Assembly (NCBI RefSeq): GCF_024158915.1
Contig: NZ_JAMZGF010000001.1
Coordinates: forward strand, 124,001-188,000
Direction of reading: 5' to 3'
DNA from: Chryseobacterium sp. S0630
GTDB lineage: Bacteria; Bacteroidota; Bacteroidia; Flavobacteriales; Weeksellaceae
Length of the DNA: 64,000 nucleotides
Shown: one piece after another, positions 28,587 to 29,711 of the stretch
Layout: each line of letters starts with the position of its first letter
How positions within the stretch are numbered: position 1 is the stretch's first letter
Translations under genes and position numbers: made by a program
Notes under the pieces: generated by a model
Told to the model about the DNA's origin: nothing
The model's database searches: none
Seen by the model: the letters and a program-made list of their open reading frames with translations, nothing else

Positions 28587-28613
28587 AAAAGCAGCTGTTG
28601 AGCTGCTTTTTTT
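28587..28613. terminator. Bidirectional terminator between sufS and the small peptide gene
   Basis: AAAAGCAGCT / AGCTGCTTTT stem with a GTTG loop, T run on the plus side and A-rich flank on the other. The small minus-strand gene stops 2 bases away. Confidence 0.8.
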
Positions 28614-28614
28614 A

Positions 28615-28740
28615 TTAGTCGATGGGAATGCAGTAGCATTTTCCATCAATAATCACCTGATAATACCCGATAGCACACTCAAGGCAGATTTCTCCTCCTG
28701 CCATAATGCTTTTCATTTTTTGTTTGTTCAGCTTTTTCAT
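28615..28740 (-). CDS. Bacteriocin-like double-glycine leader peptide, 41 residues
   Basis: A short frame from ATG 28740 to TAA 28615. The start MKKLNKQKMKSIMAGG has the shape of the Bacteroidota leader MKxLxKLxxxxLKxIxGG, with Gly15-Gly16 as cleavage site. The 25-residue remainder carries four Cys (19, 22, 35, 37) and ends CYCIPID. In Chryseobacterium many such small genes are annotated as bacteriocin-like. No processing peptidase or transporter is next to it. A variant -7 element (TACCTTTA) lies about 25 bases upstream. The peptide is too short for routine ORF calling. Confidence 0.6.
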   Translation of the reverse strand: MKKLNKQKMKSIMAGGEICLECAIGYYQVIIDGKCYCIPID

Positions 28741-28889
28741 ATGAAATGATTTTGGTTAGATATAAAGGTATAAATTATAGATAAAAATTCTCATTCTTTT
28801 TAGAATTAATGTAATGTATTGATTTTATGTATAATTGTGTTTTGTGGAAAATAATTCATTAATTTTATATAAACATCAAATATTTTATT

Positions 28890-29711
28890 ATGAAAAAACT
28901 ATTTATTATTTTTTTATCAATTTGCGGGATATGTAATGCGCAAGTTTTTTCTGAAAACTTCAATGGTAATACTCTGCCGACTGGGTGGACGGTAGAAAAC
29001 CCTGATAACTCTTATAACTGGAATGTGGGTGCGCAGAATGGTTTCGCAGGCTTTCCCGATGGGGCGGCTTTTTTTGATGATGATGATGCCGGTCCAACCG
29101 GAGTTGTTACAAATGCCAGGCTGATTTCTCCTGTGATTAATCTTACCGGAGTGGTGAACCCAAAGCTGTCATTCAATTATGCCAATATGATTTATGATCT
29201 TGATTCTACTTTAAAAGTTGAAGTCTTCAATGGAACTTCCTGGATTCAGGTTTTTACCTTTTCAGGGGAAGCAGGGGTATGGGATCTTGATTTTAATACC
29301 TTTTCATATGTAGTAACGAGTTATGCTGCCGCAGCAAATATAGATTTGACACCTTATGCCAATGCTGCTTTTAAACTAAGATTTGTTTATGATGATGCCG
29401 GAGACTATTCTTACGGTGTGGTAGTAGATAATGTGATGATTACAAGTGGTGTTTTGGCAACTTCAGAGGTTTCATACGCTGATCATATAAATGTATATCC
29501 GAATCCGGTGAAAGGGAATCTTTATATTAAGCAAAGCGCTCAAAATAAATTTGAAAAGATTTCTGTGATTGATCAGTCAGGGAAGCTTGTGAAAACATTT
29601 AACAAAGCATCTGATTCCTATGACTTATCAGATCTGCCAAAAGGAATCTATATTATAATGATTATTAATCATGATGGAGAAGTTGTTAAGAAGAAAGTGA
29701 TGAAGGAATAA
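28890..29711 (+). CDS. T9SS-secreted protein with a jelly-roll (choice-of-anchor J-like) domain
   Basis: 273 residues. Signal peptide (1-18, ending CNAQ). The central domain opens VFSENFNGNTLPTGWTVENPD and ends YGVVVDNVMITSG, with an acidic run of five Asp (about 63-67) that could bind calcium. The type A sorting domain covers about 200-273 (HINVYPNPVKGNLYI ... YDLSDLPKGIYIIMI ... VKKKVMKE). Secreted and probably surface attached; target unknown. Ends at a bidirectional terminator facing hemE. Confidence 0.87.
   Translation: MKKLFIIFLSICGICNAQVFSENFNGNTLPTGWTVENPDNSYNWNVGAQNGFAGFPDGAAFFDDDDAGPTGVVTNARLISPVINLTGVVNPKLSFNYANMIYDLDSTLKVEVFNGTSWIQVFTFSGEAGVWDLDFNTFSYVVTSYAAAANIDLTPYANAAFKLRFVYDDAGDYSYGVVVDNVMITSGVLATSEVSYADHINVYPNPVKGNLYIKQSAQNKFEKISVIDQSGKLVKTFNKASDSYDLSDLPKGIYIIMIINHDGEVVKKKVMKE

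Follow-up and report, generated by a model that had tools for sequence, protein, structure and literature searches.

What does the short open frame at the end of sufS in Chryseobacterium sp. S0630 encode, and is it a gene at all? The frame, 41 codons plus a stop, occupies positions 28615-28740 of the window (the whole stretch of 64,000 nucleotides that was analysed) on the minus strand, and its product is MKKLNKQKMKSIMAGGEICLECAIGYYQVIIDGKCYCIPID. Translation agreed with an initial annotation, which had described a 41-residue frame with Gly-Gly at 15-16 and cysteines at 19, 22, 35 and 37, and from which the strand was missing. The same annotation had placed the stop codon 2 bases from the sufS terminator; the stop codon lies 4 bases past a terminator-like stem (28587-28610, 10 pairs).

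A Conserved Peptide Gene beside sufS

Because the stem at 28587-28610 is called as a terminator in scans of either strand, it is probably common to sufS and the peptide gene, which converge upon it. Upstream of the ATG (28741-28800, minus strand), a TAnnTTTG-like element, which we take to be the Bacteroidota promoter consensus, and a AACaCTTTAAATCA-like block are present in many orthologues, as read by eye without a count; the window's own copies are TACCTTTA and AACCAAAATCA. We infer that these elements are the gene's own promoter and 5' end. No Rfam family matched the peptide locus at gathering scores in a scan of the window. The divergent neighbour at 28890-29711, between hemE and the peptide gene, carries a type of C-terminal sorting domain (Por_Secre_tail) belonging to the T9SS.

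The 736 window frames with an ATG start and at least 25 residues were screened for those that have at most 80 residues, contain GG, GA or GS with 12-21 residues before it, and carry four or more cysteines after it. The peptide frame was the only one to pass, which by itself is weak evidence for a gene because 20 Markov-resampled windows already averaged 0.35 such frames. Its leader-helix score was 22.9 bits, compared with 5.9 bits for the next of the 736 frames and 13.4 bits for the best frame in the 20 resampled windows.

The initial annotation depended on homologous small frames in related genomes, and these were found. In a set of 148 Chryseobacterium genomes (a sample of a larger group, with the genome itself included), 77 contained some match at E <=0.1 and 48 contained an orthologue (E <=7e-14, identity at least 68%), always one per genome. 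Two more genomes (G025 and G107) had fragments in the slot between sufS and hemE, one of them with internal stops, and the remaining weaker matches were counted as other peptides, judged on the sequences of those that were fetched. Met was at the expected start in 46 of the 48 orthologues; in the other two (L029 and L041) the ATG sits in another frame, through a frameshift or a sequence error. A second genome collection, with partly overlapping assemblies, yielded 34 loci whose titles were all Chryseobacterium, save for one metagenome-assembled genome labelled "Weeksellaceae bacterium". There was no copy outside the genus in a sample of 296 family genomes, where Chryseobacterium was the only one of 33 genera to match.

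Position was conserved as well. Just past the end of sufS, and convergent with it, lay 45 of the 48 orthologues, with the ATG 157-188 nt from that end. Within the stretches examined, hemE was present for 43 of the 48, and in 20 the gene for the T9SS-sorted protein separated hemE from the peptide gene, as far as those stretches reach. In 14 genomes the peptide gene was the sole one between hemE (109-194 nt away) and sufS (37-64 nt away). The exceptions were L024, with three genes between the peptide gene and sufS, and L043 and L044, with neither neighbour in the examined stretch. When presence was mapped on a tree of sufS with 78 rows, of which 46 had the peptide, 2 a decayed copy, 5 an alternative peptide and 25 none, it was clustered, yet 11 changes were needed, a pattern that fits repeated loss and may include gains.

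Selection was estimated as uncorrected Nei-Gojobori pN/pS on an ungapped alignment of the 48 sequences anchored at Cys19. Values were 0.19 overall, 0.27 for the leader and 0.15 for the core, and among the 23 closest relatives 0.09, 0.18 and 0.044, respectively. Of 37 columns, 22, 20 and 34 were variable at the first, second and third codon positions, so that variation was concentrated at third positions. A chance open frame in the gap between sufS and hemE would be consistent with the shortness of the sequence and with its escape from Pfam and NCBIfam, neither of which holds a known family for the peptide; however, it was rejected by the conservation in 48 of 148 genomes, the pN/pS of 0.19 and the third-position bias, and we give it almost no credence. 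Conserved in this way, the frame is a gene, and since it is retained at the same position in many related species, the peptide probably does something useful.

The Slot in Genomes That Lack the Peptide

Thirty genomes without the orthologue were checked, 26 of them having no match and four having weak matches to other peptides (G008, G045 and G051 in the set of 148, G005 in the family sample). A sufS match was found in all 30 (partial in G109), and hemE lay in the examined stretch for only some. A functional link between the peptide and sufS was dropped, sufS being matched in every one of these genomes. In 5 of the 30 (L164, L167, L173, L176 and L184) the same slot, in the same orientation, was taken by a different leader peptide of the HTCPxNTYHI type (hereafter A2). 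In the other 25, no leader peptide was seen by eye within 600 nt on that strand.

A Leader Helix Offset from Gly-Gly

The initial annotation had proposed looking for the same leader elsewhere in the genome. The family model NF047798 (leader_Chryseo, "bacteriocin-like protein") gave 33 matches over its cut-off of 23.5 bits in the same genome, and 58 in all at E <=10. The peptide itself had no match to this model at E <=10, and a consensus-like orthologue was likewise without one, whereas all five of the other Chryseobacterium peptides tried exceeded the cut-off. Like the focal peptide, NF047798 leaders have a helix of the form KK[LI].+..[LM]K.I and a Cys-rich core, and come from the same genus; unlike them, the focal peptide is without the first three leader residues and has one extra residue before Gly-Gly.

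A leader profile was constructed from 27 of 30 fetched NF047798 matches of the same genome, namely the ones that open, at the expected base, with an ATG and read M-K. With the helix part ending at Gly15, the 48 orthologues scored a mean of +21.5 bits, versus -22.8 bits when it ended at Gly16, and register 15 was better in all 48; the training leaders, scored in-sample, averaged +26.2 bits. By contrast, the two residues of the site favoured register 16 in 46 of 48 (+5.7 versus -0.3). Judged by the profile, the helix is separated from Gly-Gly by one more residue here than in the 27 leaders of the same genome. At positions 14-15 the pair was AG in 45 orthologues, GG in 1, GA in 1 and VE in 1; at 15-16 it was GG in 39, GT in 4, GR in 2, GD in 1, EG in 1 and AR in 1. 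Thus, in register 15 the -2 residue is Ala in 45 of 48 orthologues, whereas all 27 of the other leaders have Gly there, and a Gly followed by Gly, Ala or Ser at -2/-1 of the helix register occurs only in L042 (GG then R) and L045 (GA then R). To judge by their letters, it is in these two that the site favours register 15 and normal spacing is restored.

According to the accessible part of PMC6363468, the solved complex of a C39 domain with a leader uses leader residues -4, -7 and -12. In register 15 these positions are taken by I12, M9 and L4, so that the register ending at G15 has the hydrophobic residues of C39 substrates. In profile alignments with two other families of Chryseobacterium peptides, the leader aligned ungapped with that of the A3 peptides (VCIQNC...CCIP), and a gap opened at Ala14 with that of the A2 peptides. 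A similar leader ending, I-K-A-G-S, is found in two peptides of the same genome at the locus C93.

Judged from its sequence, the N-terminus of the peptide is a Chryseobacterium peptidase-C39 leader. Whether the cut would follow G15 or G16 is uncertain, because Gly-Gly lies one residue further from the helix than in other leaders. The leader would thus comprise residues 1-15 (M..AG; 28696-28740, minus strand), or 1-16 if the cut follows Gly-Gly, and the core 26 residues (16-41; 28618-28695, minus strand) or 25. Of the earlier reading, a Bacteroidota leader of the double-glycine type followed by a 25-residue core, the leader stands; Gly-Gly 15-16 as the sole cut has become one of two registers, with the helix pointing to G15 and to a core that may be of 26 residues. 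What the gene encodes is a conserved peptide of the C39-leader kind, without a model in the family libraries tried (Pfam and NCBIfam).

Cysteines and Predicted Fold of the Core

All four cysteines (Cys19, 22, 35 and 37, spaced as CxxC plus CxC), Leu20, Ile30 and Gly33 were invariant in the 48 orthologues. Gly15 was present in 46 of 48; Gly16 was present in 40 and so is not conserved. Six cysteines occurred only in L033 and L047, with the extra ones at position 29 and near the C-terminus, the other 46 having four; gained together, the extra two point to a third disulfide in those two peptides. AlphaFold2, with 28 sequences, predicted a leader helix at residues 6-13 and a beta-hairpin with strands 26-31 and 34-39 (mean pLDDT 85.1, pTM 0.52; 69.5 to 85.1 in pLDDT across the five models). 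Foldseek found nothing in the PDB under E 0.001 for this model, and a sequence search of the PDB returned three weak, apparently unrelated matches, the best (E 0.013) to an E3 ligase.

Invariant CxxC and CxC motifs are also compatible with zinc binding inside the cell, and a small cytoplasmic zinc-binding protein, whose N-terminal helix only mimicked a leader, would sit well with Gly16 not being conserved and with a cysteine desulfurase, sufS, encoded next door. However, the leader helix scores far above every other frame of the window and aligns by profile with leader families of the genus, a paired gain of two cysteines fits a disulfide better, and sufS is matched in all 30 of the genomes checked that lack the orthologue (partially in G109). 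We consider a zinc protein improbable.

Processing Machinery Elsewhere in the Genome

As the initial annotation had stated, there are no processing genes near the peptide gene; its neighbours are sufS, the T9SS-sorted protein and hemE. It had also suggested a search for C39-peptidase transporters, and proteins combining C39 and ABC domains were found at two loci of the genome, C128 and C95. At C128 a leader peptide, a C39-ABC transporter (731 aa), an HlyD protein and a VKOR-thioredoxin protein are encoded together. At C95 (L198:5452-11016) a C39-ABC transporter accompanies a radical SAM/SPASM enzyme and three other Gly-Gly peptides with Cys/Trp, and this set is probably a separate RiPP cluster.

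The C128 transporter had a match in 144 of the 148 genus genomes (E <=1e-150) and the VKOR protein in 139 (E <=1e-20). Among the 48 genomes that bear the peptide, the transporter was matched in 47, the exception being G063 (75% complete), and the VKOR protein in all 48, the copy in G063 being broken by stops. Because this machinery is near-universal in the genus, its co-occurrence with the peptide says little, being permissive rather than discriminating. A second VKOR-thioredoxin-like paralogue, 30% identical, adjoins a KAGS-type leader peptide at C93 (L242:7227-10243), with a second such peptide nearby; that contig had no match to a C39 domain.

DUF805b RNA before Other Leader Peptides

The RNA family DUF805b (RF02914) had 22 matches in the same genome (L220-L241), 17 of them over the cut-off, in a scan in which 150 of 4120 first-look candidates were scored. 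Ten of the 22 were followed, 18-24 nt downstream and on their own strand, by a match to a Gly-Gly leader, where 0.018 would be expected, and one of the peptides so preceded is that adjoining the C39 transporter. An eleventh match precedes the KAGS-type peptide at C93. Of the other 11, ten are followed after about 16-26 nt by the ATG of some other frame, the remaining one being at C45; judged by eye, these frames are presumably caspase-like, tail-collar-like and signal-peptide proteins. DUF805b was present at gathering score directly before five of seven peptides (L072, L075, L076, L092 and L099), and the sites at L084 and L098 were below the cut-off. No DUF805b precedes the focal gene in the Rfam scan of the window. 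A literature search on DUF805b found no paper with that word.

Comparison with Known Peptides

Bacteroidetocins, as described in the accessible text of PMC6671954, have a 15-aa leader, four cysteines, a mature peptide of 42 aa and their machinery in the same four-gene region; their target is BamA, according to the part of PMC8546649 that was available. Compared by description rather than by sequence, the focal peptide resembles them in its leader of 15-16 residues and its four cysteines, but has a core of 25-26 aa rather than 42 and distant machinery: genes for a thiol oxidoreductase and a C39 transporter do not adjoin the peptide gene. A linked immunity gene, as in class II bacteriocins, is also missing in the 14 of the 48 genomes whose gaps leave no room for one.

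The A3 peptides (4 sequences) matched the focal family by profile over 40 columns of leader and core, with 91% probability; they differ in having an 18-aa leader with normal spacing and more cysteines, and are not beside sufS. The A2 peptides, which share the slot, matched weakly (78%) and differ in being 63 aa long, with an 18-aa leader and a different core. In a search of open, non-subscription literature on Chryseobacterium double-glycine bacteriocins, leader peptides, RiPP precursors and secreted peptides, none of the matches listed concerned this peptide.

Discussion

The explanation that we favour, and regard as probable from the sequence comparisons, is that the gene encodes an orphan C39 precursor that is exported and oxidised in trans into a peptide of 25-26 residues with two disulfides, acting outside the cell. 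The gene would be transcribed alone, and the leader helix would dock in the C39 domain of the transporter encoded elsewhere, at C128. The leader would be cut after G15 or G16 during export, the VKOR-thioredoxin protein encoded beside that transporter would oxidise the core to give a hairpin with two disulfides, and the mature peptide would then act extracellularly.

What that action might be is a question on which two readings compete. The initial annotation had likened the sequence to the bacteriocin-like leader design of Bacteroidota. The leader with its four-Cys core is indeed there; the bacteriocin function is less clear, with a core that is conserved rather than diversified and 14 of 48 genomes without room for an immunity gene. 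A narrow-spectrum bacteriocin of the bacteroidetocin type, killing related Bacteroidota via an outer-membrane target, is a possibility, though a tentative one. The leader of 15-16 residues and the four cysteines are as in the bacteroidetocins of PMC6671954, as far as its accessible text describes them, the genome encodes a transporter and a probable thiol oxidase, and presence is patchy, with 11 changes on the sufS tree. Against this, the core is too short by comparison (25-26 aa, not 42) and has no four-gene region of its own, an immunity gene in those 14 genomes could only be an unlinked one, and the core pN/pS of 0.044 among 23 close relatives gives no sign of diversification.

That same strong purifying selection, with one orthologue per genome at a fixed locus, would be expected of a secreted pheromone-like signal, constant across Chryseobacterium species since it must fit a receptor. 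Precedents include double-glycine peptides among the secreted controllers of pneumococcal population behaviour (PMC7595303) and small Gly-Gly proteins involved in cyanobacterial biofilm development (PMC4997328), each as given in the accessible portion of the source. However, no receptor gene is linked, and absence or decay of the peptide gene in 100 of the 148 genomes means that it is not essential; we hold a signal, too, to be a tentative proposal. A signal accounts for the conserved core, and for the absence of a linked immunity gene, no less well than a bacteriocin does. On these two grounds, the core being near-frozen, we rate a conserved role (a kin signal or some other extracellular function) as equal to a narrow bacteriocin, or marginally more likely.

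More speculatively, and with some doubt on our part, a single export and oxidation hub in Chryseobacterium (C39 transporter, HlyD and VKOR-thioredoxin proteins) might serve dozens of scattered orphan peptides, partly under DUF805b. The sufS-linked peptide would then be the conserved one among them, transcribed from its own promoter and carrying an offset leader, and would act as a genus-level signal rather than a weapon.

Both Pfam and the NCBI leader model miss this conserved, probably secreted peptide gene, and the number of peptides of this kind counted in Bacteroidota is for that reason probably an underestimate. With the helix and Gly-Gly out of step, and two orthologues in which the spacing is normal, the family poses a specific question about cleavage by C39 peptidases.
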